Positions 6,601 to 54,929 of a stretch of DNA of 64,000 nt are shown here, piece by piece. The stretch is taken from assembly GCA_963681505.1 (NCBI GenBank), contig OY811992.1:3757889-3821888 (forward strand). The letters run 5' to 3'. The notes below the pieces were generated by a model. It made no database searches, had not been told where the DNA came from, and saw only the letters and a program-made list of their open reading frames with translations. The DNA is from Eunapius fragilis (taxonomy: Eukaryota > Porifera > Demospongiae > Spongillida > Spongillidae). Position numbers and translations under genes: made by a program. The stretch's first letter is position 1, and every line of letters begins with the position of its first letter.

Positions 6601-9600
6601 GATTTAATAGTTCCAACTGAAAAATGGCATTCTTAGTACAGCATATTATTAATTCATGTTAACTAACATTTGTTGATTTTAAAAGCACTTAAAAATGGGT
6701 TTGCACTAGTATTATTTGTCTAAAAAGTGCAATGTATAGCTTATTTACTATTATAACCATTAAAACTTGGTCAATTCATCCTTGGACATCCGGTAAACAA
6801 TATATTATAGATACAGCTGATCAGTTTTATTTTATAAACTCCCACACTGTGCACATTAAGACTTCAGAAAAGATTAAAAACACATTGTAATGACTTATTT
6901 ATCATGTAAAAAACATCATGTACTTATGTACATGTAGCATGCTTGCAATTAATACCATGCTTAAGCTAACGCAACAGAATAACCAATTATACGTGAAGGC
7001 ACGTGTACATTTTTACACTGCCACTCCCCCTGCAGAGACCTTGTGGGTTCCTGCCCCACCTCCCTCTTGAATTTACAACTGAGGCAACCATGTAAAAAAA
7101 TATGTGTGTTCTATTTGTTTCCATATCCTTCAACCTATTCGCGAGATATCATTGGGTCAGTACATAAATGGTTAGAAGCTGCCATTTGGTCCTTTATGAC
7201 TTCCACATAATTCTTACAATACCATATGTGCCATATGACGTATACCCCTCCATTAGTACTGACGTAACCCCTCCATTAGTACTGACGTAACCCCTCCATT
7301 AGTACTGACGTAACCCCTCCATCAGTACTGACGTAACCCCTCCATTAGTACTGACGTAACCCCTCCATTAGTACTGACGTAACCCCTCCATTAGTACTGA
7401 TGTAACCCCTCCATTAGTACTGACGTAACCCCTCCATTAGTACTGACGTAACCCCTCCATTAGTACTGACGTAACCCCTCCATTAGTACTGACGTAACCC
7501 CTCCATTAGTACTGATGTAACCCCTCCATTAGTACTGATGTAACCCCTCCATTAGTACTGACGTAACCCCTCCATCAGTACTGACGTAACCCCTCCATTA
7601 GTACTGACGTAACCCCTCCAATAGTACTGACGTAACCCCTCCATCAGTACTGACGTAACCCCTCCATTAGTACTGACGTAACCCCTCCATTAGTACTGAC
7701 GTATACCCCTCCATTAGTACTGACATACTTGGTATTGCCACCAACACGTATAGCCAAAGAAACGTTGCATAATGGAAAGAGATGTTCAATGGATTTGGGA
7801 GTGGTAAGGAGAATGGTGCATTGGTATCATAGTACGGTGGGATGCTCAGCCAGACCACCATTGCTGTAAGGGAAGAGGTACAAATGTCAACATGAAAGAA
7901 CAATGTATCACAATCAAGGAAAATGAAATTAGGTAGAAGTTAATTACTACTACGGTAAAGTACCACTTATAAGCCCTTCCTCTGCCCCCAATGCAACAAA
8001 AAAGGCTAGTGTTTCAACGTGCATATCTCCGTAACCGAGAATGTTTCTGTATACTTAGTTTTCAAAAGCATGTAGGGGGTATCATTTTACTTCCTGAAAG
8101 GTTCGCTGAAACATTCACTGTTATGGAGATATGATCATCTAAACATGAGCTGTTATTTTTTTGATGGGGGTGGATGGAGGGAAGGGGGGGGGGTGGGGTG
8201 GGGGGGGGGGCTAATAAGTGATACTTTACAGTAATAATAAAGAATTATAACAAAAAATTCAAACATCAATATATTTAGCACTTTATTAAGTCATTGAAAT
8301 AACTAGTTATAAAGTCAATAATATACATTATACAGTACATACATAGATCAATTATAACTTGCAAGCTAGCATAGCTTATTACAAATCCTGATTTCACAAT
8401 GCAGCTTGATGTACCTTAATTAATCACAGAGCCAGCAGTAATTAATCACAGAGCCAGCAGTAATTTGCCTTCGCAAGCAAAATTAAACTTGCACTCAATT
8501 TTCCTTGATTGCGCCTACCCTTTAATAAATTATTACCAATTTGTGGGCTGCAGTGTTGTCATTTACAGTATTCAGCTTACAGCAAGGCACAATGCAAGCT
8601 GACTATGGCTATACAAACTATAATCGCTGGTTAACTTAGTATAAAGCCCACATAATTTTGTTTGTACCAAGTTATGCCTTTAAGTTACACCAGCAGTTGT
8701 AGTTTATGTTGCCATAGTGACATGGAAAAGCATACATCACATACACATCATCACATCATCTGGTCACACCATCACCATCCACTGGTCACACCATGACCAT
8801 GCACTGGTCACACCATCACCCGCATCCCCACATAGGTCACACCATCCCAACGTACATAAACCTTTACACTACACTTCCGGGTTACTCATCACCACACTTA
8901 AACCATCACCTTCATCTCACATAGGCCACATCATCACCTCACATTAAGATCACAACTATACACATGTTCTCTTTGTGACCACACGAGCAATCCACAAGGA
9001 GCAGATTGCATCATGATGTGTGTACACACTGTGACGACATACAATCACCACACAATTGTATTTCTCTCTGATGGTCATAAGGTCTCCTTTCAAAGGCAAC
9101 ATTTTGAAGCACCGACAACCCCACACACAGAAAAGCTTTTTCTCTGAATCATTTTGATATACAGTATAATATTTATTAACCAAACTGACCAATATTTACT
9201 TGATGCACCCCCCCCCCCCCCCCCTCAGAACACAATGATGGGGTTGAGGGGTGTGTGTGCATGGGGGGTGAAAGATAACATTACCTTCAGCCAGGAATCC
9301 CAATGGATAGAGTGGTATCCAGACGGTGTATCGCAGCCATGTCAGGACCTGGATCTCCACGTTCACAACAGACAAGGCATAATATGGATACCTTCGGACG
9401 AGGGCACGCACAGAAGACTGACATGGGAACGCTGCCTGTCCCCATAGTACACACCCCTAACTCCTTGTCACTGCCTGTCCCCATGGTGCACACCCCTAAC
9501 TCCTTGTCACTGCCTGTCCCCATAGTGCATACCCCTAACTCCTTGTCACTGCCTGTCCCCATGGTGCACACCCCTAACCCCTTGTCACTGCCTGTCCCCA

Positions 9601-12046
9601 TGGTGCACACCCCTAACTCCTTGTCACTGCCTGTCCCCATGGTGCACACCCCTAACTCCTTGTCGCTGCCTGTCCCCATGGTGCACACCCCTAACTCCTT
9701 GTCACTGCCTGTCCCCATAGTGCATACCCCTAACTCCTTGTCACTGCCTGTCCCCATAGTGCATACCCCTAACTCCTTGTCACTGCCTGTCCCCATGGTG
9801 CACACCCCTAACTCCTTGTCGCTGCCTGTCCCCATGGTGCACACCCCTAACTCCTTGTCACTGCCTGTCCCCATGGTGCACACCCCTAACCCCTTGTCAC
9901 TTCCTGTCCCCATAGTACACACCCCTAACTCCTTGTCATGCATGTGGTTACGTGAGGTGACGACATGAGTACGCTGGTTGACAGGAAATTGTCTGCATAT
10001 GCACACCCCTCCTTCCCTAACCCAGCTCCCCCACACTCCATCCCCTCACACACACACCATCCCCACCCTCCACCCCATCCATCCTCCATCATCTCCTCAC
10101 ACCCAGCTTCCCCACCCTCCACCCCTCACCCACACACCCCCATCCTCTCACAACCAACTATCATACCTGACTAATTCTATAAGAGACCATACAAGGAACA
10201 GAACCCACACAACTGGATGTTGGTGCAGCTTTTCATTTGAGGCTAGCACGACAAAGAGAACCATCCCGCGACCAGCTACCTGGGGATGAGGAGGGAAAGG
10301 GGGCACAGTTACATCACCCAATAAGGAGTCCCCACCTTGGTACTGAAGTCCCCAGTCCTGCATAGACAATTATGTACAGTCCCCAGTCCTGCATAAACAA
10401 TTATGTAGTCCCCAGTCCTGCATAAACAATTATGTAGTCCCCAGTCCTGCATAAACAATTATGTACAGTCCCCAGTCCTGCATAAACACTTATGTACAGT
10501 CCCCAGTCCTGCATAAACAATTATGTACAGTCCCCAGTCCTGCATAAACAATTATGTACAGTCCCCAGTCCTGCATGTGGGTACCATATATTTGCTAAAG
10601 GGGATGGCTCGACGATCCAATCATTTTGAAGTGTTCATTGCAACCATTTCAACTGCTGAAATATTCCTCAACGTACAGCAAAGAGATATTTGCTGAAGTT
10701 TGTATGCTTCCAGCTAACACACACATGCACACACATACATCCACACACACACACATTCATACCTGCATAAGGGTTGGCATGACTGCACCTCTGACCAGTC
10801 CTACAGCAGAATGGATGACTTCCAGAAATGCCAAAATCTGACACATGGAAATGATAGGTCCCGCCCTCTCATAGGCCATCTGCACACCATCTTCAAGAAG
10901 AAGTAGAAAGAAAATTTATACCATTGCCACCAAGTGATTCATAATATCACCATCACAACTTCTAAGTGATTCATCACCACCTCCATGAGGGATATAACAC
11001 CTGATTCATAACACATCATCACCACCTCCATGAGGGATATAACACCTGATTCATAACACATCATCACCACCTCCATGAGGGATATAACACCTGATTCATA
11101 ACATATCATCACCACCTCCATGAGGGATATAACACCTGATTCATAACACATCATGACCACCTCCACCTCAAAGTGACGATACACTCATAGTGGTCAGACC
11201 ACATGGTAGTGACTTTTAAGTAGCAAAGCTACAACGGAACATTTCACCCGAAGTTTGCTTTCCTATGCTTTCCATATTGCTGATCAGTTAGGATTCCCTA
11301 TCTGTTAGGGTTCCCTATCAGTTAGGGTTCCCTATCAGTTAGGGTTCCCTATCAGTTAGGGTTCCCTATCAGTTAGGGTTCCCTATCAGATAAACATACA
11401 CAAAGCCCTTGGAGAGAGTACAAAGATTTGCCCGCCATGTAGTGTTAAGCAAATGGAACCTAGGTTATGAACCAATTGAAGATAGCGTGAGTTATAAACC
11501 AATGAACTAAGGTTCGGTGCTTCCTGATATATAGAATTTTTTGTAGCCAATTTGGCTAATTTGTCATTTTTGTAGTAGCCAATTTTATTTTGCAGTAGCC
11601 AATAATTGAATCAACCTTTCAGAAATGAAAACAATATTGTGAGCCTGCCACTTCTAAACCGCAACGTACACGTGCACTGTAAGTAAGCTTGCATAAATGA
11701 TATTCATACTAATTAATCGCTAAAACGGCGAATCCAAGATGCTTAATAGATTGCCAAACAAGCATTTCTATTGCCAATGGCGAATTTGGCGAGTGTGTCG
11801 GGAAGCACTGCAGGTTAGCCCTGGTAATGTTACCATCATGACCCACTAACTATACACACCACCTATACAACCAGAGGTAGCAGAACGGCTCAGGTGGTGG
11901 GTGGACTGGTCTCATTTTAGTACAATAATAGTCCAATCACTGGTACTGTCCCATCCATGATTATTGAAAAAAATTATATATATATATATATTAAATATAA
12001 TCATCTGAATTGGTCACAGCCAACAAAACGTTCAGAATAGATCCAA

Positions 12047-12096
<50 letters not shown>

Positions 12097-15000
12097 ATAC
12101 CGACCCAGACGACTTACCATATCCTTGAAAAAGGCACTTTCCCAGCACCCACACAACAGCGCAGAACCCCACCCACTGCACAATATTGTACCCCATCAGA
12201 TACACCTTCCGGGCCACACCCGCCCCTGCAAGGAGATGATCACAGGGATAAAACGGCTGCCTGGTCCCAAGCAACGACAACAAAGCATACATTTCATGTA
12301 CGTGTCAAATTTCTTCAGTTCTTTCTCTATGGCTTCCAACTGCTTTTTCTGATGCTCCTCCCTCAGCTGCCGGACAAAAATGAACCAATCAGAACAGAGC
12401 AAAGTGGTTAAAAGTGGGGCCCCTCTGCTTAGCGTGACCAACTACCATACCAACACTGTAAAAATGAACCAATCGGCATAGAGCAAAGTGGTTTATAGTG
12501 GGCCCTTTAATGTAACCGACTACCATAGCAACACAAAGTATGTAAAATGAACAGGTTTTAATTTCTATTCCTTCAATTCAACACATCAAAGCTACAGCAA
12601 GTTACCACATATCATATTTGTTATCAAAGTGGAAGTGATGTTCTAATGTTAACAGGACTTTTAAGTTTATTTGCACAAATATTGTGTCTAAGACTTGGGG
12701 CATTGCACCGACGCAAGGATCTGAGCCAAGCCACATCTAGCACAGGGGGCTGGCCCATGTCACATCTAGCACAGGGGGCTGGCCTATGTCACATCTAGCA
12801 CAGGGGGCTGGCCCATGTCACATCTAGCACAGGGGGCTGGCCCATGTCACATCTAGCACAGGGAGCTGGCCCATGTCACATCTAGCACAGGGGGCTGGCC
12901 CATGTCACATCTAGCACAGAGAGCTGGCCCATGTCACATCTAGCACAGGGAGCTGGTCCATGTCACATCTAGCACAGGGAGCTGGCCCATGTCACATCTA
13001 GCACAGGGAGCTGGCCCATGTCACATCTAGCACAGGGAGCTGGCCCATGTCACATCTAGCACAGGGAGCTGGCCCATGTCACATCTAGCACAGGGAGCTG
13101 GCCCGTGTCACATCTAGCACAGGGAGCTGGCCCATGTCACATCTAGCACAGGGAGCTGGCCCATGTCACATCTAGCACAGGGAGCTGGCCCATGTCACAT
13201 CTAGCACAGGGAGCTGGCCCATGTCACATCTAGCACAGGGAGCTGGCCCATGTCACATCTAGCACAGGGAGCTGGCCCATGTCACATCTAGCACAGGGAG
13301 CTGGCCCATGTCACATCTAGCACAGGGAGCTGGTCCATGTCACATCTAGCACAGGGAGCTGGCCCATGTCACATCTAGCACAGGGAGCTGGCCCATGTCA
13401 CATCTTGCACAGGGAGCTGGCCCATGTCACATCTAGCACAGGGAGCTGGCCCATGTCACATCTAGCACAGGGAGCTGGCCCATGTCACATCTAGCACAGG
13501 GGGCTGGCCCATGTCACATCTAGCAAAGGGAGCTGGCCCATGTCACATCTAGCACAGGGAGCTGGCCCAGCACAGGGGGCTGGCCCATGTCACATCTAGC
13601 ACAGGGGGCTGGCCCATGTCACATCTAGCACAGGGAGCTGGCCCATGTCACATCTAGCACAGGGAGCTGGCCCATGTCACATCTAGCACAGGGGGTTGGC
13701 CCATGTCACATCTAACACAGGGAGCTGGCCCATGTCACATCTAGCACAGGGAGCTGGCCTATGTCACATCTAGCACAGGGGGCTGGCCCATGTCACATCT
13801 AGCACAGTGAGCTGGCCCATGTCACATCTAGCACAGGGAGCTGGCCCATGTCACATCTAGCACAGGGGGCTGGCCCATGTCACATCTAGCACAGGGGGCT
13901 GGCCCATGTCACATCTAGCACAGGGAGCTGGCCCATGCCACATCTAGCACAGGGAGCTGGCCCATGTCACATCTAGCACAGGGAGCTGGCCCATGTCACA
14001 TCTAGCACAGGGAGCTGGCCCATGTCACATCTAGCACAGGGAGCTGGCCCATGTCACATCTAGCACAGGGAGCTGGTCCATGTCACATCTAGCACAGGGG
14101 GCTGGCCCATGTCACATCTTGCACAGGGAGCTGACCCATGTCACATCTAGCACAGGGAGCTGGCCTATGTCACATCTAGCACAGGGAGCTGGCCCATGTC
14201 ACATCTAGCACAGGGAGCTGGCCCATGTCACATCTAGCACAGGGAGCTGGCCCATGTCACATCTAGCACAGGGAGCTGGTCCATGTCACATCTAGCACAG
14301 GGAGCTGGCCCATGTCACATCTAGCACAGGGAGCTGGCCCATGTCACATCTTGCACAGGGGGCTGGCCCATGTCACATCTAGCACAGGGAGCTGGTCCAT
14401 GTCACATCTAAACACAGGGAGCTGGCCCATGTCACATCTAGCACAGGGGGCTGGCCCATGTCACATCTTGCACAGGGGGCTGGCCTATGTCACATCTAGC
14501 ACAGGGGGCTGGCCCATGTCACATCTAGCACAGGGAGCTGGCCCATGTCACATCTAGCACAGGGAGCTGGCCCATGTCACATCTAGCACAGGGAGCTGGC
14601 CTATGTCACATCTAGCACAGGGAGCTGGTCCATGTCACATCTAAACACAGGGAACTGGCCCATGTCACATCTAGCACAGGGAACTGGCCCTTTTACCACA
14701 CAGCACAAGGTAACCCAGGTAACCCAGGTAACCCTTCCATAGCTGACAAAACGGATCACCATCCTCCAGTGGCTAAACCAACCAAAGGAATGACCTAACC
14801 AAGCCGTCCTGAAAGAGTTACCACACAATAAATTGTCCTGCCATTGTTTACCAAACAGCCTAATTACTTACGATAATCTACACGTACTCATGCAAGCTGC
14901 AGATCACAACATTCCTTCATTGCAGTGGACAAAAGACCATCACTTGGAGATTTAGATTGTAACAGACAACAGTGAATAGCTAGCAGCACTGTAATGGAGC

Positions 15001-18000
15001 AGCAATCACTTCACGGCAGGTGAGGATAAATTAGCTGTCATGTGACCACTGCCCTAGTCATAAGCTATTTGGCCTACACATTGCTCCTACCCAGCAAACT
15101 TACGAGCTTCTTTGACTGTTCCTTCTCCTTCTCATCTTCTTCCTCAGAGCTCTCACTCTTCCAGCGATCAAAGTCCACCCGGAGCCAAGATGGCCGCTCC
15201 TGTGTGCGCTGTAGCCTTGGCCATTCCTTCGCTGTTTTAAACACCACACCCACACACACACGCAAGTAAATAAAAACATTCTCTGGTGAAATTCTCTAGT
15301 GACAAAGTTGGCAGGATATGGGATTGGAAGGCAACAGTGGTAAGGGAACAAGGTTGTGGGAAAAGGAATATGAGACAGTGCAGTGTGGGTTCCATTACAT
15401 TTACGTGTGCTAAATATAGGTCTTAGCCTCATTTTCATTTTCCCACAACCTTGTTCCCTTCCTTTTAATGCCACCATTGCCATTGAATCCTGTACCCCAC
15501 CAACCTTCTTGTTTTCACATCTTCAACAAAATATATTTTAACGAGCCCTGTTAGAGGATTAATTGGATAGGATATATTCTTTACACATCAAATATATTGT
15601 ATTACAACAATGTTAGTATTTTGTCAAACTTTCAACAACTAGGGTAATTTTTAAATGAGCCTTTAAATATACTGAACCCATAAAGCTCAGATACACTAAG
15701 GGTTAATGTAAGTATCCCTCCTATCCCTCCTATCGCTTCATGTTGTCTCAGATGATCGAAAGTGGATGAATTCAGCAAACGTAAGTGTTACAGCTGCGAA
15801 ATACGCATCACTTTGTCACAATGTTGTTGCTAGGCAGTGACATGATGATGTCACTATTAATAGCACGTTGTCACATGCTAGTGCCAGCCAGCAAGGCCTC
15901 CCGCAGCCTTAGTTATGTTACATGCTAGTGCCAGCCAGCAAGGCCTCCTTCAGCCTTAGTTATGTTACATGCTAGTGCCAGCCAGCAAGGCCTCCTTCAG
16001 CCTTAGTTATGTTACATGCTAGTGCCAGCCAGCAAGGCCTCCTGCAGCCTTAGTTATGTTACATGCTAGTGCCAGCCAGCAAGGCCTCCTTCAGCCTTAG
16101 TTATGTTACATGCTAGTGCCAGCCAGCAAGGCCTCCTTCAGCCTTAGTTATGTTACATGCTAGTGCCAGCCAGCAAGGCCTCCTTCAGCCTTAGTTATGT
16201 TGTATGAGGGCGTGCACTTGGTCTCCAGGTATCGGGCAACAGCGGTAATAGTGGTAAATTTTAGTTCTTCAGTTAACATATTTACTGGCTCCTCCATTTC
16301 TTGTAAGGTCCGACTCCTCCATTTCTTGTAAGGTCTGGTTTGTTTTATACAATACCACGTAATTAATTTTTAAATCTGCATTCACCTTATATTCAATGCA
16401 TAGGTTTTTTTTGCATGTCGCTACAACCCAAAGATCGACCATTTGTGCAAGTAACCTTGTCTATTCTGATTCGCATATGAAGTTCATTACGTATAGTGGT
16501 TTGCCGTAGATAACATAAGCTATAAATAGAAAAATTGCATTGTAGGCATGGTAACATTAGGTCTAGCTATAAGTAGCTGGCCATCACAAGGCCAAGTGTA
16601 CTGCAGGTATGTCAGACCCATGCAAGGCCAAGTGTACTGCAGGTATGTCAGACCCATGCAAGGCCAAGTGTACTGCAGATATATTAGACCCATGCAAGGC
16701 CAAGTGTACTGCAGGTATGTCAGACCCATGCAAGGCCAAGTGTACTGCAGGTATGTCAGACCCATACAAGGCCAAGTGTACTGCAGGTATATCAGACCCA
16801 TGCAAGGCCAAGTGTACTGCAGGTATGTCAGACCCATACAAGGCCAAGTGTACTGCAGGTATATCAGACCCATGCAAGGCCAAGTGTACTGCAGGTATAT
16901 CAGACCCATGCAAGGCCAAGTGTACTGCAGGTATATCAGACCCATGCAAGGCCAAGTGTACTGCAGGTATATCAGACCCATGAAGATAAAATGTAGTAAA
17001 TAAATTCTACAGCTATTGGCGCAAACAGCGTCATTTGATATTTTTGCTATGGTAAGTTATACGACAATAAAAGGAGGAGAAATATGGGACTGGGTATGAG
17101 TGCAGGCACCATGTATTTTACTTCTCTAAAAACCATTTGTTTTCCATTGGAGTTCAAGGAATGCAAAAAGTAGTTTGTATTTGAATTGTTGCTCTACAAA
17201 GGGCTAGACAATGAGCCTCACTTGATTTTCTTAATGATTTTAATGATACAGCACAAATCTTATTAATTACATCATACAATATGGGCCGCACTCTACAAAA
17301 GGGATTGAGCAGGAGTGCAACAACAAATAAATTAACGATGACCTTGGGAACTCATGCATAGAGGTAAATGTCCCCATCTAAAGGAGCAGCATTTTCTCCC
17401 ACTGCTCCCTCACCTACACCTATGCTTATATCCCTCAGGTCTCCTCCAGAAGGTACCACAAGTAAACACACATAGTATTGCAACATATTGTCACTTGAGT
17501 TGCAATAAGACAGAGATATTGTTGTATGTATGTGCTAATTAATGGCGGGTTGACAGCCAAACAAAAGAAGTTAATATAAATACAATCCCGACCTGCAATG
17601 CAGATCCCTCCCTTTTAGCCACGCCCAGGGAAGCATTAATTAGAAATGGCTGTGGTTTTATGTAGAACCATACATTTGGGAGAGGGTGTGGCATGAATAT
17701 TCAATGACAGGTCTACCATCAATGGACCTGTAACAACCATTAACTGACCTTCTTTCTTTAGCAGTCGAAACTCCACCTCCTTTGGGGAAAGTGTCATGCG
17801 ACAATTCTAAGGGGGGGGGGGGGGGAGGAGCAACATGATGATAATCTGACATCAGCCATCTTCCCCAACATGCAGCTGGCTGGCCACCCAACATGCTCAC
17901 AACTCACCTCTGTATTGACGGCATCATGGAACTCCAAATCAAACCCATACATATTCTGCCCTGATGCCCCAGTCCCCAGACCTGCAATAATTTTTAAAAG

Positions 18001-26124: not shown

Positions 26125-27762
26125 TCAGTAGTGCTTCAGCCAGACGCTGTCGGGGATGCTGGTGTCGTTGCTCCTCACGTACTCCCACAGGAGAGCCGAA
26201 CTGTTGGCCACCGTGATCCTGCCGTACCCAAAGCTGGGGTCAAAGTGCTCAGACCACGGGGCGTAGAACGTGGGGGCGTCATCCAGCGTGTTCCCGGCCG
26301 ACCCTATCACGATATGCACCGTGCCCTGGGAGGGGGAGGAGGAGGAGGAGGAGGAGGAGGGGTCGCACGCCCCCCTGTACACGGAGCACGTCCTCTCGTA
26401 GCTGTGGTAGTGACCCCACAGGGCCATGTCCACCCGGTACAGGTGTATGAGGTCCTCCAGCTCCTGCTGCATCATCAGGGTCACCACGTAGTCGCTAAAG
26501 TACTCCTCACTCGAGTACATTGGACGGTGACCCACAAGGATGAGCCAAGGGGTGGAGCTCCTGTCTACCGACTTGAGGTCGCTCTCCAGCCAACCGTACT
26601 GGGCGGAGCCTCTGGTGAAGTTGTGCTCTGTGCTCATGACCGTAAAGTGCACCATCCCGTACTCGAAGCTGTACCACCAGGGCTGGTAGCCCGAGAGGTC
26701 GGGCATGTGGAAGCGGTTGTAGAACGGGACCCCGCACTCCCCTCCCGAATCGTCGCCGTAGTTACCCCACCAGGGGTGGAACCCGTTGCCGGAGGCGTGG
26801 CTGGGGTCCTTGTCCCCGCCCACCGTGTGATCCTGCTCGTGGTTGCCGATGCTCACCATGTAAGGGGCCCTGGAGGCGTAGGGCTCGATGAGAGACATCC
26901 ACGCGTCCCAGATGTAAGACTGGCCCAGCGCGTAGGAGAGGTCCCCCTGGTGCACGACGAGGGAGACGTTGTTCTCTTCCACCTCGCGCAGGACCATGGC
27001 GGCTACCTTGGTGGCGCCCGGTGCGGGAGAGAGACCCATGTCCCCGTACGTGATGAACGAGAAGGGCTGTTTGCTGGACGTGTCCAGGCTGGTGGTAAAA
27101 GTAGTGACGTCGCTGAATACGATACCCCCGCCGTACTGGTAGAAGTATTTTGTGCCCGTGGTGAGGCCGGTGAGGAGAACGTCGTGGAGGTAGCCGGGGT
27201 CGACGAATGTTTCGGACGTGTTGGCGGGAGGCCCGCACATGTCCGTGTAGCTGTACGTGTGGGTAGATCCAACGGCGGCGTGCACGAGGGAGTCCGGGGC
27301 TAGTCCGTACCTCACGACGGGGACGTCCTGGCTGCCCGAGGTCCACTGGACGCGCATCTCGGTCGGGTTCCCGGTGAGCGCCAGGTGGCACTGTAAGGGG
27401 GCGCCCCCTCCGCCTTCGAACGTGATGACGTCGCTGCGCGCCACGAGTTCGGTGAAAGAGTAATATCGAAGCTCGCAGGAGGTCCTCGCGTTGTAGAGGG
27501 GTACGGACATGCTCCAGTAACCGTCTTCGTAGGTCGCCGAGTTGACTACCGGCCAGCGCTGGAGAAACAGGTGTCCGTGTCTCTCTGGAGGGCAGTACAG
27601 ACCCACCCAGTCGTCCTCCCTGGGCGACCCAGGGGTCCAGCTGATAACCACTTGTTGTCCGTTCTTCACTCGCGACGGAGGTTCCACTTCCAGTCTTTTT
27701 ACATGAGCAGCACCAGCTGCCGCAATGAGACATGCTATTATTAGCACTGACGAAGCCATCAT
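26125..27762 (-). CDS. Secreted purple acid phosphatase (ACP7-type), intronless
   Basis: Dinuclear-metal phosphomonoesterase, secreted or lysosomal. 545 aa in one exon. Residues 1-18 are a signal peptide (SSVLIIACLIAAAGA). A fibronectin-III-like N-terminal domain (about 25-225) precedes the metallophosphatase domain. Metal-ligand motifs in order: YGDMG (239-243), GDLSY (273-277), GNHE (306-309), GHRPM (411-415), GHYHSYER (450-457). Several NxS/T glycosylation sites. A Ser-rich insert (GGA/GGAG repeat on the plus strand, about 26326-26360) lies in the C-terminal part. Length and motif order fit animal ACP7 and plant-type high-molecular-weight PAPs. Two adjacent ATG codons start the frame. The ORF is conspicuously GC-rich and lacks introns, unlike HACD3, PhyH and the NIDO gene. 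Confidence 0.93.
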   Translation of the reverse strand: MMASSVLIIACLIAAAGAAHVKRLEVEPPSRVKNGQQVVISWTPGSPREDDWVGLYCPPERHGHLFLQRWPVVNSATYEDGYWSMSVPLYNARTSCELRYYSFTELVARSDVITFEGGGGAPLQCHLALTGNPTEMRVQWTSGSQDVPVVRYGLAPDSLVHAAVGSTHTYSYTDMCGPPANTSETFVDPGYLHDVLLTGLTTGTKYFYQYGGGIVFSDVTTFTTSLDTSSKQPFSFITYGDMGLSPAPGATKVAAMVLREVEENNVSLVVHQGDLSYALGQSYIWDAWMSLIEPYASRAPYMVSIGNHEQDHTVGGDKDPSHASGNGFHPWWGNYGDDSGGECGVPFYNRFHMPDLSGYQPWWYSFEYGMVHFTVMSTEHNFTRGSAQYGWLESDLKSVDRSSTPWLILVGHRPMYSSEEYFSDYVVTLMMQQELEDLIHLYRVDMALWGHYHSYERTCSVYRGACDPSSSSSSSSPSQGTVHIVIGSAGNTLDDAPTFYAPWSEHFDPSFGYGRITVANSSALLWEYVRSNDTSIPDSVWLKHY

Positions 27763-28217
27763 AATAGGCCTATCTCGAAGCCCTTGGTATGTATAATATT
27801 ATTCATACACTGCGCACCTGAAGGGGGTTTACCTCACCACTGATAAAAGTCTTGCCAAAAACAACAACAACAACAAAAAAAAAACATCCACGGTACAATT
27901 TTTGTATGCACAGAAGGTTATGGTGCGCGTACCGGACCGGTTTAGTAGGTTTACGTACACAAGATCTGTTCCAGGTTTGTAGCTGTATTACCCTGCAAAA
28001 TATTCACAGTGAGATCAGCCGACTATGTTGCATTGTTTGTCAATTCGACCGTAGCTGCATTGCCCTAGCTGTTTGAAGTTCACAGATACATGTAGACGCT
28101 ACAACGTGTGCCAAAAATAGCATTTAATTCATTTCCGGTGCCACGCCTTATTGCAACAGGCGCTTAGGCAATTGCTCTATTTAGATTTATTTGACCGTTT
28201 GTTTGGTGGGAGGTAGA
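27763..28217. promoter_or_regulatory. Divergent intergenic region between PAP and DUF4419 genes
   Basis: About 450 bp separate the two start codons, so the genes may share a bidirectional promoter. An A-run lies at 27868-27888 (AACAACAACAACAAAAAAAA). TATAATATTATTCATA (27791-27806) lies close to the PAP start. No specific factor sites can be supported. Confidence 0.4.
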
Positions 28218-29327
28218 ATGACGACTTTCCAAGTCCACGACGTAGTCCAAGCCAGAAAGGCTCTCCCGAGGGGTAACCTGAAGCAGATAGTACACGAGCG
28301 TTGTGGAAGCGTACGGTTAGAGTGCTTCTCTCATTTCAAGCACGTCCCCTTCGAGTGCTCGGGGGACTGGAGACCCCTCAACAACGCCTTCATTGCCGCC
28401 GTTCACGCGGCATTTTCACAGCACTACCCGCTGGTACTGACTCCCGACGTCATATGGCTGTGCATAGTACAGGGGCTCGCCCACCACGTAAGCGCTCACT
28501 CGGAGAAGCTGAGACGACACTTCGTTGCGCACGAAGACAACCAACCCATGACCATCAAGCGCGACGATTTCATCAAAGGCTCTCCGATCAACAACTGGCC
28601 AGAGGCCTTCGAAGCGTTCTCCGAAGAGGTGAGACGGCACGTAGGCGAAGAGACCCACGATCGCCTCTCCCCAAACTTTTCCACCACGGGACCAGTCGAG
28701 AGGGCAGCTGCCCAGGTGGTCCTCATGGACTGCTTCAGGCAGTACTTCTGCTACAAGATGGTCTGCATATGCGGCATACCCTCGATCACACTCAAGGGGA
28801 CCCCCGAGGACTGGACCCTTCTGAGGAGGAAGGTAGTGGAGCTGATTGGGAGGAGCGAGATGGAATGGTGGGTGGACGCTCTGGAGCCGATCCTGGACCA
28901 GTTCGTTGAGGCAGCCTCGGGGAGGGTGGACAGAAAGTTCTGGTCGTCCATATACAAGTTGGAGGAAGCGTACGGGGAGTCATACATCAACGGCTGGATC
29001 GTTGCACTCTTCCCGTACCTTCACACCTCTGGGGGGAAGTCCCACACGCGCAACCATCACCTCGAGCAATGGGTGGACGGCAACTACTCGGGACACCTCA
29101 CGAGCAGCCGGTTTCCTCCGGGAGTCGTGTCCGTCCCATTCAAGTGGCAGGTGTTGGAGACCGTCTACCCGATGCACCTGTACGTAGGGTTCATGGCCGC
29201 CACTCAGGACCCCAAGACCCTCGCCATTCACGCTGAGATCGGTTGGGCGGTGTCTGACGCCAAGGACGTGGAAGCCGCCCAACATGAGCTGAGCAAAAGT
29301 AGGAGGAAGCGTCAGCGCGTGTCTTAG
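28218..29327 (+). CDS. DUF4419-domain protein, intronless
   Basis: Function unknown; DUF4419 proteins occur in fungi, bacteria and scattered animals. 369 aa from the ATG at 28218. Supporting signatures: FIAAVHAAFSQHYPLVLTPD followed by VIWLCIVQGLAHHV, then FVAHE, then a middle block (DCFRQYFCYKMVCICGIPSI, LEGTP-like GTPEDW, WWVDALEPILDQF), a GWI..LFPY segment, and a C-terminal SVPFKW/LYVGFMAATQDP block. Predicted soluble, no signal peptide. The C-terminus is basic (KSRRKRQRVS), resembling a nuclear-localisation stretch, but this is only suggestive. Like its neighbour it is GC-rich and single-exon. Confidence 0.85.
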   Translation: MTTFQVHDVVQARKALPRGNLKQIVHERCGSVRLECFSHFKHVPFECSGDWRPLNNAFIAAVHAAFSQHYPLVLTPDVIWLCIVQGLAHHVSAHSEKLRRHFVAHEDNQPMTIKRDDFIKGSPINNWPEAFEAFSEEVRRHVGEETHDRLSPNFSTTGPVERAAAQVVLMDCFRQYFCYKMVCICGIPSITLKGTPEDWTLLRRKVVELIGRSEMEWWVDALEPILDQFVEAASGRVDRKFWSSIYKLEEAYGESYINGWIVALFPYLHTSGGKSHTRNHHLEQWVDGNYSGHLTSSRFPPGVVSVPFKWQVLETVYPMHLYVGFMAATQDPKTLAIHAEIGWAVSDAKDVEAAQHELSKSRRKRQRVS

Positions 29328-47420: not shown

Positions 47421-47934
47421 TTTATTTTATTTTTAAAATCATCCGTACAGTCATGTGTAATAGACTTTTTATACTTGCATATGTATGTGCTTTTATTCAT
47501 GTATTGATATTATGCTGTATTAGTATCTTTCCTAATACAATATATACATGAACTACGACTGAAAAATAATTACGCGACATTATAAGAGTACAACCTATCA
47601 CACAGCAACACTGCATAACTAAATCTACAATGCAATTCTACTCGATATAGCTCTGGAGTTAACCTTAACTAGTGCCATGTCAGATGACCTACAGATCCAT
47701 AACCACCCTGGACATGGACTGTTTGGTTCTGATGGAGAGCCTGCAGGCCAAACATGAGAAGTTGTGCTGTGCCCCATGCACCATACGCTTCAACTGCTAG
47801 AGGCGCACAATCTCCAAGTTTTACATGAACTATTATGACAAACAACGAACAAAAGCTTAAATATTCAGGGACAAAGTATCTGGAGTAGAAGGCTGCAGTG
47901 TTGGCTCTAACTTACGGTGGCCCGGTAGGTCGCG

Positions 47935-48185
47935 GGTACGAGCAGCGGTTTGAGAGCAAAAATGAGTACGAGCAACGGTCTGAGAGCAAAATTGCGTACG
48001 GTCTGAGAGCAAAATTGCGTACGGTCCGAGAGCAAAATTGCGTACGGTCCGAGAGCAAAATTGCGTACGGTCCAAGAGCAAAATTGCGTACGGTCTGAGA
48101 GCAAAATTGCGTACGGTCCAAGAGCAAAATTGCGTATGGTCCGAGAGCAAAAACGCGCAGGAGCTGAGAGCAAAAATGCGTACGA
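47935..48185. repeat. 23-bp minisatellite in the left arm (mirror at 50175-50400)
   Basis: About 8-10 units of GTACGGTCCGAGAGCAAAAT type, with variants (TCTGAGAGC, TCCAAGAGC). The same variants occur in mirrored order in the right arm, so the array predates the inverted duplication. Confidence 0.9.
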
Positions 48186-48369
48186 GCTGAGAGCAGTTGT
48201 TTACATTGGATTTAGGCATTACGCCATTTGTTTTTTTTCTTTAAAAAAATGGCTTCCAGATGCATTGTTAGCGTCATCCGTTTGTAACTTTTCCAAGGGC
48301 TGTTAACATTCTGAGGCAGCGCAAGGCAGCTATTATTTAGAGTGTAACTGTGTGTGGGCATGAGTGTCT

Positions 48370-48380
48370 TGTGTGTGTGT

Positions 48381-48420
<40 letters not shown>

Positions 48421-48484
48421 ATGCGTGCGGGCGTGTGTATATGTGTGTGTGTGTGCGCGCGCGTGCGTGCGTGCGCGTGTGTGC
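48370..48484. repeat. (GT)n microsatellite in the left arm (with 48605-48635)
   Basis: GT/GC alternating tract; mirrored as CA tracts at 49695-49765 and 49917-49997 in the right arm. Confidence 0.9.
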
Positions 48485-48603
48485 GATTCCTTTTACATCG
48501 TGATGTGTATCTCTTTATTTGTCATACACTGGTCAGAGCTTATTACGCATATAGAAAGCTGTGATCTCATCTTATTTACTTTGCAATAAGTCGGTTGTCT
48601 GAA

Positions 48604-48636
<33 letters not shown>

Positions 48637-48769
48637 GTTTTGTCTGCATCATGCATGTGTATGTTCTAGGCGTTAAAGAAGGGAAATTTTACTTTTAAAT
48701 CATGCATACTGTTTTGTCCCACTATTGATTGGGCCGAGGATCTTGTAACACTCAAGATTGAGATAATCA

Positions 48770-49250
48770 GCTTCAACCCAGAACTCTTCAACTTGCTGAC
48801 ATGTTGTCCCTCTCTCTCTCATTGCGTTGTTGCAGCTTTGATTGCCTCCCTGTCATTCTCAGGCTTGGGCAGTGCTGTTAACAGTAGGCAACGGCAGTGT
48901 TCAACACCAAGGTCTCCCTCTCCAATGCCATCTCTGCTCTGGACCCTCCCATTTCCCAGAGGGTCTTGTCAGGAATGATGATATAAGCTCAACATTTCCA
49001 CATCTTGTTGGAGTCTTCCTCCCCAGCCAACAGAGCTTACCTTCTGTCAGTAGCAGTTAGCTCCTCATGCTTCCTCTTGCATGGCTACCAGTGGTCACTT
49101 CCCCTGGTATGGGTTTGTACCTGGATTCCAATGAGTACCAGATGGCCATTGGTGGTGGCTTGAGTTGCATACTTCCGATTAGTCTATGTACCCATTCTAC
49201 CCCAATACTGCTCTCAACCCTTTTGGTCACCAAAAGGGGAAGGGACCACC
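48770..49250 (+). mobile_element. Decayed RLE-type LINE coding fragment at the centre of the inverted repeat
   Basis: Frames spell FNTKVSLSNAISALDPPISQ then, after frameshifts, GMGLYLDSNEYQMAI, the linker region of the same LINE class as the fragments at 31-32 kb. The reverse copy occupies 49233-49500 on the minus strand. Confidence 0.55.
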
Positions 49251-49695
49251 GGTAGCCAAGAGGAAGCATGAGTAGCTAACTGCTACTGACAGAAGGTAAG
49301 CTCTGTTGGAGACTCCAACGAGATGTGGAAATGTTGAGCTTATATCATTATCATTCCTGACAAGACCCTCTGAGGAATGGGAGAGTCCAGAGCAGACATG
49401 GCATTGGAGAGGGAGACCTTGGTGCTGAACACTGCCGTCGCCTACTGTTAACAGCACTGCCCAAGCCTGAGAATGACAGGGAGGCAATCAAAGCTGCAAC
49501 AACGCAATGAGAGAGAGAGTGAGGGACAACATGTCAGCAAGTTGAAGAGTTCTGGGTTGAAGCTGATTATCTCAATCTTGAGGGTTATTGGCCCAATTAA
49601 TAGTGGGAGAAAACAATAAATGAAAGTATGCATGATTTAAAAGTAAATTTCCCTTCTTTAACGCCTAGAACATACACATGCATGATGCAGACAAA

Positions 49696-49740
<45 letters not shown>

Positions 49741-49914
49741 CACACACACGCACGCACGCACGCACACTTCAGCCAGCCGACTTAGTGCACAGTACAGTAA
49801 ATAAGATAAGACCACAGCTGTCCGTGCTTTCGGTAAATCTCCCAAGACTGCTCTTAACTGTACCTGTGTATAACAAATACAGATACACATCACGATGTAA
49901 AAGGAATATTAATT

Positions 49915-49998
<84 letters not shown>

Positions 49999-50427
49999 GA
50001 CACTCATGCCCACACACAGTTACACTCTAAATAATAGCTGCCTTGCGCTGCCTCAGGATGTTAACAGCCCTTGGACAAACGGATGACGCTAACGATGCAT
50101 CTGGAAGCCATTTTTTTAAAGAAAAAAAAAACAAATGGCGTAATGCCTAAATCCAATGTAAACAACTGCTCTCAGCTCGTACGCATTTTTGCTCTCAGCT
50201 CCTGCGCGTTTTTGCTCTCGGACCGTACGCAATTTTGCTCTCGGACCGTACGCAATTTTGCTCTCAGACCGTACGCAATTTTGCTCTTGGACCGTACGCA
50301 ATTTTGCTCTCGGACCGTACGCAATTTTGCTCTCGGACCGTACGCAATTTTGCTCTCAGACCGTTGCTCGTACTCATTTTTGCTCTCAAACCGCTGCTCG
50401 TACCCGCGACCTACCGGGCCACCGTAC

Positions 50428-51130: not shown

Positions 51131-51705
51131 TTGAAGCCTTCTCTCAGCTGGTGTCTTGGCTTGCTATCCTCACATGCCATGACTGTCAGACGAGGCTATA
51201 CTAAATAAGGCTCGCTCAAAGAACAAGCGTAGGAAGGTAGAGAGGGAGTACTTGTAGGCTAGGGGTTATCTACGTGTAGAATAATTATGTAACTGTGTTT
51301 ATTGTAAATGATATAAATATGATTATTATACATCTCATGTGCTATGTTTCCCTGGGATCCCATGTTTGTCATGCAGGGTTTCGAGTGATTTAAATTCCCT
51401 CCTAAACACAAGAGAGTGAATTTGTGCAATTTGCCTGGGATAAAGTGAACTTGCTCATCCGAAATTTGCTCAAATACAAGTCCTAGTCAAACTATAGTCA
51501 CTACATAACTGGAAGCAGCTGCAGCAAGTCATTCTGTCCTTTCTCACAGTTGAGTGACTGGAATGGGTCTGTTAGAAGAGAGAATTAGGTGCACAAATAC
51601 AACCATGGTGGGTGAGTACATGGAAAGCTGGAAACACAAAAAATTAGCAAAACTGTTCAGTCAAACTTACCTTGTTGGCTTTGGTGGTCATGGTAAGGTG
51701 AGAAT
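51131..51705. other. Region downstream of the single-codon-exon gene
   Basis: On the minus strand this contains well-formed splice motifs (CAACAAG|GTAAGTTTG at 51666; TTCTCTCTTCTAACAG| at about 51567 followed by a 21-nt open segment and GTGAGA) and an AATAAA (plus TTTATT, 51298-51303). Further 3' exons of the gene at 51706-54714 could lie here; none is certain. Confidence 0.35.
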
Positions 51706-54700
51706 CTATGTCTGTTTTAAGAGAGATCCATAGACATGCTCTGATGATGAGTGGGGAGCAGTCTAGGGCATTTGAGGATGGTAGAGTAGCGCATTGCATA
51801 TCCACAATAGCAAGAAATTATTTAGTAGGGGTTTATGTGCATGGGATAATGCCATTGGTGGTAATACTTACGCATTGCATTTTCAGAATAGTATATCAAT
51901 GATGACAGGGAATGTTAAGGTGCAATGGAAAGCTCCTTTTTATTGATACTTACACACTGTATCACACATGATAGTATCCATGTAGACAAGCAATAAGTGT
52001 AGGCACATTAATATCCAATGGGAAATGTAGCATTGCTTATACTTACGCACTACATTTTCGGTAACAGTGTGCGTAGTGACAAGGAATAAGCAGGAGTGTT
52101 AAGGTGCAATGAGAATACAGCACCATTGATACTAACCAACTGCATCGTTCATAATAGTATCCAAGAGAACAATGTATATAGGGTGTGATAAAGGTGCAAT
52201 GGGAAATTCAGCAACATTGCTATTTACCTTCTGCATTGTCCGTATATAATCCACGGCAGAGATAAGTATGGGCAGTAAAAAAATCAAGATCATTGATACT
52301 TACAACCTGCATTGTACATAATGTCATGGTAAAGTACTATGGGAAACGTGACATCATTGATACTTACATACTGCATTGATCATAATAGCATCATAATGGA
52401 ATAAGTAAGGATAGTATAGTGAAATGGGAAATATACATCATTGATTCTTACACTCTGTTTTGTTCAGAATAGTATCCATGGTGACATGGGATGGGTGGGC
52501 GTTGTAAAGAGCAGCGGGGAAATACAACAACCTTGGTACTTACATGCTGCATTATTCATAATTGTAACCATAACAACAGAGTATAGGCAGCAACTTAAAC
52601 ACCATACGTCATCATCACTGATACTTACAGGCTGCATTGTCCATAATAGCATCCATGGGAACAAGGTATATGTGTGCGTGATCAAGTTGCAATGGGAAAT
52701 TCAGCATTAATGATACTTACAACCTGCATTGTTCATAATAATATCCATTGCAATAGGCAAGAAGTAGGCGTGGTACATTTCAATAGGAAATGCTAAATCA
52801 TTGATACTAACGATCTGCATTATTCATAATAGTATTTATGGTGACAAGACATAAGTATGCATGGTAAAATGCAATAGGAAATTATGCAACACCATTGATA
52901 TACTTACAGCCTGTGGCATTGTTCATAATAGTATTCATGACAAGATGAAGGCACGGTAAAGTGCAATAGGAAATACAATATCAATGATCATTACCGTCTG
53001 CAGCATTCATAATAGTAACCATGTCAACGTGGGATAATGGCAAAGTGCAATTGGATAATACGACATCACTTACAGACTACATGTTCACAGTAGTATCCAT
53101 AGGAATTAGAAATATGCTAAAATGCATTATCATTGATACTTACAACCTGAATTGTTCGTATAGTAGTATTCATGGTGATGTGGATTAAGCAGGCATTGTA
53201 ACGTGATGGAATTGGTTGGAACTTACAATCTACATTGTTCATGATCATATCCACGGTATTGGAACAGGTAGGCACGAAAAGGGTGTAATAGGAAATCCTA
53301 ACATCACCGTTACTTACGCTCTGCATTGTTCAGAATAGCATCCATAGTGGCATGGCCCCCAAAAATCAGACATGTTGCAGTTCAAATGTCATTGATACTT
53401 ACACACTGTATTGTCAGTAGAATGATAGTATCCATGGTAACGTGAAAAATAGATACGTTAAGGCACAATGGGAAATCCGACATCAATGATACTTACAGGC
53501 TGTGTTGCATCCAATTGTGATAAGGGATTAACAAGCATGATAAGGTGAAATGAGGAAATGCAACATTATTGATACTTACACGCTGCGCATTTCATTCATG
53601 GTGACAAGGAAGAAGTAGCAAGTTTAAGGTACAATGAGAAGATGCAACATCATTGATACTTACTGTCTGCATTGTTAGTACCAGTGATGGAGATTAGTAA
53701 TTTTATAGATGCGGTACTGAAAGGCATACATCACTTATACTTACGCACTGCATTTTTTATAATGGTATTCAGGGTGACAAGGAATACGTAGCCGGTCATA
53801 ATAGACAATGTAACATCATTGAGAACTTACTAGCTGCAGTCACCATTGTGGCAAGGAATAAGAAGTAGGCATATTAAGGTGCAATGAGGAAAGTAACATC
53901 CTTGATACTTACTCTCTGCATTGTTAGTAGTATTAATGGTGGCACATGCATAATCATAGGGCATGGTAAAGTTCCAATGGGAATTGCAACACCATTGATA
54001 CTTACAGGCTGCGATGTTCACAATAGTTTCCATGGCAATAAGGAATCAGCAGGCACGGTAACGAATGTAACATCATGATACTTACTTGCTGTATCGTTCA
54101 CAATATAGTATCCACGGAGACAAACAATATGTGGGCATGATAAAGGTGCAATGGGAATGCAACAGCATTGATCTTACTTTCTGCATTGTTTACGACAATG
54201 TCCATGGCACAAGAGGTAGGCAGGGTAAAGTGCAATGGAAAATGCCATATCAATAAAACGTACCCACTGCATGCAGTGTTCACAAATGTATCCATGGCAA
54301 CATGGAATTAGTGAATTGCGACGCGAGAAATCATTGATACTTACGCTCTACATTGTTCATAATAGTAAACCCATGACAACATGGAATAAGTGCCGTGCTA
54401 CGGGAATTGCAACATCATTGATACTTACACACTACATTGGATGCAAGGAATAACCGGTATACGGATTATAACCGAAGTACAATGCCGGGAAATTTAACGT
54501 CATTGATACTCACAAATACCGGAGCCTTTCCGTTGATATCGACCTCTTTGCTCATCTCATGATCAATTTCATCGTTCAGCTGCTACTTTACATAAGTCAG
54601 TTGTTGTAAATACCTCTATTTGACACTTATACGGTCGCAAACCTTGTATCTCTGGGGACTTGCGTCAGCGAATAGAGCCAGTAGGGCCACAAGAAGAGCC

Positions 54701-54714
54701 AGTTCCTTCAGCAT
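51706..54714 (-). CDS. Putative secreted cysteine-rich peptide gene built from single-codon exons
   Basis: No family recognised. Exon 1 (54714-54643) encodes a classic signal peptide (MLKELALLVALLALFADA) plus SPQRYK and ends at AAG|GTTTGC. Exon 2 (54582-54514; NAGNAG acceptor, possibly from 54579) encodes 22-23 residues (LNDEIDHEMSKEVDINGK and APVF) and ends at TTT|GTGAGT. Then come 31 candidate 3-nt exons (54431 down to 51872), each preceded by AG (30 of 31) and followed by GT (31 of 31). A candidate final exon (51762-51706) after CCCTAG| encodes 18 residues and a stop. All junctions are phase 0; full inclusion would give a precursor of about 95 aa. Read in order, the triplets give Cys at positions 1, 9, 13, 29, 30 and 31 and no stop. 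Most 3-nt exons are unproven; exons 1-2 are the firmest part. Alternative: a signal-peptide gene interrupted by an intronic satellite. Confidence 0.5.
51780..54513 (-). repeat. About 83-bp tandem array, 31 units, each an intron-like unit around a variable triplet
   Basis: Minus-strand consensus of a unit: GTAAGTATCAATGATG, then a diverged middle (TTGCATTTCCCATTGCAC, CCTACTTATTCCTTGTCACC), then CCATGGATACTATTATGAAC, AATGCAG and any three bases before the next GTAAGT. Spacing is 70-97 bp. Units are diverged in the middle, with indels, but the gap between AG and GT is three bases in all 31. Donor variants still keep GT (GTTAGT, GTAAAT, GTAATG, GTACGT). The only AG loss is in the last unit (51866). 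A degenerate 32nd unit without a donor lies at about 51785-51815. Confidence 0.9.
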
Positions 54715-54929
54715 TCTGTTGTTCTGTCGGCTGTCACAAGGGTATGAAATGCGACTGGAACAATTTGTTTAAATACACATGTCCAGACGGAAATTGCGGA
54801 CACGAGAATACGGAAATTGCGGACGCGAGAATACGGAAATTGCGGACATTAGAATATTCCGCAACGTACAGTGCTCCAAATGAAAAGCTGCCTAAACTGA
54901 ATTTTTCAATTTTTGGCTCATATCTTTTC

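Follow-up and report, generated by a model that had tools for sequence, protein, structure and literature searches.

The gene described here is very probably a member of a large sponge family of secreted-peptide genes which, judging from their sequences, are built from tandem exons of one codon each. It lies on the minus strand of a 64,000-nucleotide stretch of the Eunapius fragilis genome (the window). A sequence-only reading of this stretch had proposed that the body of the gene is a tandem series of one-codon exons, and this core claim is supported by the avoidance of stop codons, by exon lengths that are nearly always multiples of three, by stop exons found after the array in 11 of the 36 loci read, and by a codon-structured pattern of substitution in most pairs of the C22 group. 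In the layout that we propose, the conserved exon for the signal peptide would be followed by one or two propeptide exons and then by a tandem array with homologous introns, which in most C21 members and in the C11 member would end in a short in-phase stop exon. With all introns spliced out, the product would be a short mature peptide, often Cys- and Pro-rich, to which each exon contributes one residue and which may serve in defence or in signalling.

The array of the window decodes as C S W K Q P R L C T R P C S I V S T A I V P H S Y V K L C C C, with no stop among its 31 triplets, and its units are spaced 64-96 bases apart (mean ~85). The original count of 31 minus-strand units was reproduced in full: AG is found in 30/31, GT in 31/31 and the three-base gap in 31/31, and there are 22 different triplets. 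On the minus strand, the strict pattern AG-NNN-GTNA returns 30 rows, corresponding to 29 units plus an overlap inside a unit (53900, GAT). The units outside this pattern are TGG (54266-54264), whose donor reads GTACGT, and the last one, TGC, whose acceptor is AA instead of AG. Since the aligned paralogs carry AG at the latter position (Table 1), the mutated acceptor may represent early decay of the window copy.

Table 1. Features of the window gene and stop exons following the arrays of other loci.
Feature	Position or loci	Strand	Remarks
Candidate TATA-like element TATTTAAA	54768..54775	(-)	from sequence
Exon 1, 72 nt, phase 0	54643..54714	(-)	start codon and signal peptide MLKELALLVALLALFADASPQRYK
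Exon 2, 69 nt, phase 0	54514..54582	(-)	acidic propeptide QLNDEIDHEMSKEVDINGKAPVF, donor GTGAGTATCAATG
Exon array, 31 one-codon units	51872..54431	(-)	reads without stop; introns 61-93 nt
First bases, units 1-16	54431, 54347, 54266, 54180, 54088, 54008, 53915, 53833, 53747, 53666, 53582, 53499, 53405, 53320, 53229, 53146	(-)	
First bases, units 17-31	53076, 52997, 52910, 52814, 52723, 52631, 52546, 52454, 52370, 52306, 52230, 52139, 52049, 51956, 51874	(-)	
Last unit, TGC	51872..51874	(-)	acceptor AA in window copy, AG in 3/3 aligned paralogs (L009, L010, L012)
Conserved 3' stretch, coding end or 3' UTR	51460..51568	(-)	after acceptor TCTAACAG; aligned in 6/6 C22 copies
Candidate polyadenylation signal AATAAA	51298..51303	(-)	from sequence
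Stop exon AAA TGA after array	L016-L020, L025		C21 group
Stop exon AAA TAA after array	L022, L023, L026; L028		C21 group; C11 (L028)
Stop exon AAT TAA after array	L024		C21 group

The two exons proposed upstream of the array, the first with a signal peptide and the second in phase with it, are both conserved in paralogs: a sequence closely matching exon 1 precedes the arrays of L009-L011, and exon 2 is 77-86% identical in L009-L012. The exon proposed downstream (51706-51762, minus strand) had to be abandoned when six C22 copies (the window and L009-L013) were aligned, as it falls inside an insertion present only in the window and is absent from L009, L010, L011, L012 and L013 (5/5). The acceptor of the conserved 3' stretch reads TCTAAAAG in L013, and a stretch related to it, GACTTGCTGCAGCTGCT, was found downstream of L022 and L024. 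No in-phase stop exon was found for the window gene within 260 nt of its last called unit. At the other end, just upstream of the candidate TATA-like element, a 23-bp repeat (ACGGAAATTGCGGACACGAGAAT) occurs three times (54787-54856).

The family extends across the genome, which comprises 218.9 Mb in 24 contigs. A 2-kb piece of the array used as DNA query gave 130 matches on ten contigs. The pattern CAG-NNN-GTAAGTATCAAT matched 511 times, against none for its reversed control, and the exact pattern CAATGCAG-NNN-GTAAGTATCAATGAT matched 259 times with no match for the reversed pattern, so that the array pattern is not due to chance. The signal-peptide exon is common to the family, with 59 copies (E <= 1) on 13 contigs. 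We read 36 loci in detail, the window plus 35 stretches (L009-L043, which L001-L008 overlap). A signal exon is present in the fetched stretch of 30 of them and in that of six there is none; for L018 and L024 one sits just outside the stretch. A simple pattern was tried on sixteen loci for a complete parse, and in the four fully parsed (L016, L017, L020, L038) exons 1-3 rejoin to phase 0 without stops: the phase is 0 at the end of exon 1, 1 after exon 2 and 0 again after exon 3. In L036, intron 1 seems to be absent and the signal exon runs on into the propeptide. Several C22 copies (L012-L015) look decayed.

A search of viral contigs gave no relatives of the arrays, and in prokaryote genomes 75 stretches held one pattern match each, which we took as chance. 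Contiguous, that is already spliced, copies of two decoded peptides were not found in the genome in a search run without a positive control. Pfam gave no relatives for three decoded peptides, queries that are few and very short, and one equally very short peptide had no match beyond chance in the PDB (best E 2.3). In their layout the genes agree with sponge disulfide- or Pro-rich peptides, with a signal peptide, a propeptide and a predicted Cys/Pro-rich core in an animal genome; 81 Cys and 80 Pro stand among 543 called triplets.

Exon length was examined with an exon caller that uses separate donor and acceptor profiles and allows any length from 1 to 60, applied to the 30 loci with a signal exon. 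Exons of 3 nt make up 543 of the 592 calls, and 247 of 278 in the 15 loci that were kept out of training; the same caller made 12 calls antisense and 2 on shuffled sequence. Many of the calls of other lengths hold a nested AG that would give 3 nt, and the clear longer ones measure 6, 9 or 12 nt. Calls of 7 and 9 nt at the ends of C21 arrays correspond to the stop exon, some others to the tail of exon 2, and a few (e.g. 14, 38, 58-60 nt) look false. The lengths also come mostly in threes when a pattern is used in place of the caller: ATGCAG-N{0,3}-GTAAGTATCAATG matches 351 times in the genome (control 0), the gap being 3 in 100/100 among the matches listed, and the same pattern with N{4,20} matches seven times, six of them with a gap of 6, 9 or 12. 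A single frame-breaking gap, of 4 nt, was seen, at C13:3919643. In the diverged members L030, L031 and L034, one-codon exons are interspersed with longer ones of 6, 9 or 12 nt. Over the loci, the commonest length of the array introns is 88 nt (introns of 46-109 nt counted).

Stop codons are avoided in the units. None was found among the 543 called triplets, where the base composition of the three positions predicts 16.8, and the 511 genome-wide triplets include no TAA, no TAG and one TGA, which belongs to a three-unit relic ~2.5 kb beyond the array of L029. As the units are related by duplication, and the loci are likewise related, these counts cannot be treated as independent. Directly after the array, an in-phase stop exon is present in 10 of the 12 C21 loci and in the C11 locus L028. 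It was not found within the 260 nt searched in 25 of the 36 loci (window, L009-L015, L021, L027, L029-L043), and outside the C21 and C11 groups we looked for such an exon and found none.

These data bear on the reading of the arrays as a non-coding tandem repeat, a minisatellite or RNA element in which AG and GT stand in the consensus by chance and the triplet is a free spacer. The units are tandem and homologous, and a free spacer between conserved flanks might give the same picture, but such a repeat would explain neither the genome-wide avoidance of stops, nor gaps that, where they are not 3, are nearly all multiples of three, nor the in-phase stop exons and the common signal exon in phase, nor the faster change of codon positions 1 and 2 than of introns in the window group (see below). 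The arrays do not behave as a minisatellite, in the sense of a tandem repeat without coding constraint, and we consider this reading highly improbable. Another possibility is that the units are ratchet points from which a long intron is removed stepwise, the triplets being absent from the mRNA. Recursive splice sites pair an acceptor with a donor, as every unit does; theirs is a zero-length AG/GT, whereas 3 nt separate the two here, stops are avoided and codon positions differ in rate, and the stop exon, where found, comes after the array. Recursive splicing therefore has, in our estimate, a very slim chance of being the explanation, and we continue with one-codon exons as the preferred reading.

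The substitution profile in relatives, which the sequence-only reading had named as a way to refute it, was obtained among the C22 paralogs, and in it the AG/GT splice signals have changed less than the introns. Between the window and L009, its closest paralog, codon positions 1, 2 and 3 differ in 4/31, 5/31 and 2/31 units and introns at 92/2199 positions. Positions 1 and 2 together (9/62) thus differ at 3.5 times the intron rate (odds ratio 3.9, Fisher p 0.0014), while the splice signals (5/310; AG 1/62, GT 0/62, donor +3 to +8 4/186) lie below the introns (p 0.027). Over four C22 copies, codon positions 1 and 2 are variable at 14/50 sites vs 204/1737 in introns (p 0.0018), and splice signals at 7/240, less than introns (p 3.6e-6). 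Pairwise, positions 1 and 2 have diverged at least 1.7 times as much as introns in seven of the ten pairs among five C22 copies; a clear excess is absent in the other three, L010-L011 (3/50 vs 114/1876 in introns), L010-L012 and L011-L012. In the alignment behind these pairs, the match is poor at units 19, 20 and 25, and six units of L011 dropped out. Splice signals are kept and introns drift, and the positions that change amino acids outpace introns in most comparisons with the window or L009. The codon changes among C22 paralogs are mostly of one base and the introns have drifted apart, as ordinary mutation under selection would give. The introns provide a built-in, near-neutral yardstick beside each codon, making selection on single residues directly measurable.

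A different kind of change is seen within homogeneous arrays. Between units of L016, the divergence is 4.1% in introns and 54-64% at codon positions. When units 3-6 of this array are compared with units 16-19 (counted from 0), the following introns show 0/352 differences and identical diagnostic bases, and the codons read GGA AAG CGT GGA vs CCT AAG ATT GGT, with 6 of 12 codon bases changed; the changed codons, bar ATT, occur elsewhere in the L016 array. Over all genes, 63 within-gene pairs of units have at most four flank differences. The codon is the same in 39 of these pairs and different in 24, by one, two and three bases in 5, 11 and 8 cases respectively; 12 of the 24 come from L016. Between L022 and L024, eight of nine L024 units have matching introns (0-1 differences), and the two arrays differ by units inserted or lost. 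The homogeneous genes draw on a small repertoire: L016 has 6 codons in 23 units, L017 has 7 in 25 and L018 has 7 in 33; the two C22 genes counted have 16 codons in 26 units and 20 in 29. Same-locus nearest neighbours share their codon in 127/517 cases when chosen by the upstream intron (52.6 expected) and in 118/517 when chosen by the downstream intron (52.1 expected); a link between codon and flanking intron thus exists, yet most nearest neighbours differ in codon.

Whole-codon differences between near-identical introns suggest exon shuffling at the scale of the codon. We infer that crossovers or short conversion tracts within like introns carry copies of codons from unit to unit and that unequal exchange adds or removes residues. 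Unequal crossing over and short-tract gene conversion would in this way insert, delete, duplicate or swap single residues, leaving the frame unbroken since every unit is in phase 0 and has introns like those of its neighbours, and selection would then favour the changed residues. Codon differences in homogeneous arrays might instead come from targeted mutation of the codons, in place of recombination or of ordinary mutation and selection. The 19 pairs whose codons are 2-3 nt apart with 0-4 flank differences speak for it, but the small repertoire of L016 and L017 and the presence elsewhere in the array of the changed codons of the L016 block, bar ATT, are what copying predicts, and the C22 paralogs show mostly one-base changes, so that targeted mutation appears unlikely. 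Going beyond copying itself, the arrays could form a codon-scale diversity generator, with cassette codons moved within and between genes by conversion across near-identical introns, perhaps through a dedicated process, and with splicing that may combine or skip residues. We put this forward tentatively, as an idea that we are inclined to doubt; if it were true, one genome would encode far more peptides than genes.

Codon usage in the arrays is uneven. Among the 18 amino acids that have more than one codon, nine show a preferred codon that makes up at least 84% of cases (e.g. CCT in 76/80 Pro and TAT in 27/27 Tyr), and the other nine do not. Most one-codon exons of L032 have A as their last base (CCA for Pro), both A and T occur there in L033, and the rest of the family has mostly T; codon choice may be inherited by subfamily.

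The likeness of introns around unlike codons would also be accounted for if an ordinary mature-peptide exon had been invaded at codon boundaries by a mobile, introner-like intron, so that the codons would be what is left of the old sequence; such an origin would leave the splicing itself unchanged. Some subfamilies do retain exons of 2-4 codons, as this origin would predict. We searched for a 32-nt intron core and found 137 exact copies; among the 100 listed, 99 sit in array places known from the other searches, the remaining one being at C21:1413073, and within these listed copies the intron sequence is therefore not seen spread through other genes. Near-identical introns across many unrelated genes, which characterize introners, were thus not found among the core copies listed. 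Whole blocks of units have been duplicated, and no mechanism is known that would place an intron at every third base exactly. This origin consequently seems to us quite unlikely, and duplication and exchange of units within arrays is the reading that we retain.

On the intron side, the donor of the units reads GTAAGTAT, which we take to match the 5' end of U1 in full, and this could compensate for an exon side that varies freely (T occupies triplet position 3 in 245/358, and triplets mostly do not end in G). The acceptor side, TGAACAATGCAG, shows no long pyrimidine tract, and a stretch resembling a branch site lies near the AG. The introns are mostly shorter than 95 nt, and from these traits the units would appear fit for intron definition and stepwise joining. 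If transcripts confirm the one-codon exons, the smallest possible coding exon would be the standard building block of whole genes and not a rarity. It would pose a hard test for models of exon recognition, with 30-50 consecutive 3-nt exons joined without loss, and it would represent exon shuffling at the scale of one amino acid. It would also bring to light secreted animal peptides of a class likely to escape gene finders and ordinary read aligners.

Other features were noted in the window and in the genome. At 47913-50426 of the window there is an element-like stretch with inverted arms of ~250 nt (94-98% complementary), composed largely of 23-bp tandem repeats, which looks like a DNA transposon with repeat-built ends. 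Frames at 1252-6046 resemble by eye a Ty3/gypsy-type retroelement polyprotein, the first of them with eight perfect in-frame 27-bp repeats. Many nearly perfect minisatellites cluster at 740-17000, e.g. a 29-bp unit repeated ~67 times at 12732-14690, and a purple acid phosphatase gene and a DUF4419 gene lie at 26128-27798 and 28185-29324. Silicatein is the silica-forming enzyme of siliceous sponges. A papain-family locus elsewhere in the genome (L121, a gene fragment) has the active site CGASYAF, and its best PDB match is silicatein alpha 6zq3 (E 2.6e-13); the other four papain-type exons read have CGSCWAF in three cases and CGSCWAH in one. In L119, L120, L122 and L123, cathepsin-type exons start directly after a long CA-type microsatellite (HTHTHT before the exon).

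Several known systems resemble the array genes in part. Conotoxin precursors combine a conserved signal and a propeptide with a hypervariable, Cys-rich mature part under diversifying selection; the precursor logic of the array genes is similar, but the mature regions of conotoxins are encoded in ordinary exons. The nearest known kind by product is found among peptides made by sponges. Barrettide transcripts contain a signal peptide and introns (PMC8713285), and sponges make halichondamide A and proline-rich macrocyclic peptides (PMC11382151). Like the array peptides, these are secreted or ribosomal and often disulfide- or Pro-rich (PMC8713285, PMC11382151), whereas the barrettide signal peptide differs from that of the array family (PMC8713285), and the portions of text consulted report no one-codon exon structure for these sponge peptides (PMC8713285, PMC11382151). 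No account of genes made of serial one-codon exons was found in the literature searched, a weak absence given its thin coverage of subscription papers.

Single micro-exons of 3 nt are known, e.g. in Drosophila homothorax (PMC7392893). That exon is of one codon, like the sponge units, but stands alone in an ordinary gene, whereas the arrays have 10-50 in each gene body. By architecture, the nearest known kind is the micro-exon genes (MEG) of schistosomes, whose exons are mostly of 15 bp (range 6-81, given as 3-81 in the abstract) and whose introns span 0.1-5 kb (PMC10526429). In both, secreted, variable proteins are encoded by numerous very short exons, most of them phase-symmetric; the sponge arrays differ in having 3-nt exons in tandem with short, mutually homologous introns, and MEG are hosted by schistosomes (PMC10526429). 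Measured against MEG, the arrays thus have the many tiny phase-symmetric exons, and have neither the 15-bp exons, nor the introns of 0.1-5 kb, nor the schistosome host. The arrays could be viewed as an extreme variant of MEG if the common trait of many tiny symmetric exons were given more weight. Their unit size, their tandem homologous introns and a swapping of residues at the scale of the codon, all foreign to MEG, lead us to consider them, as far as their sequences indicate, a new kind.
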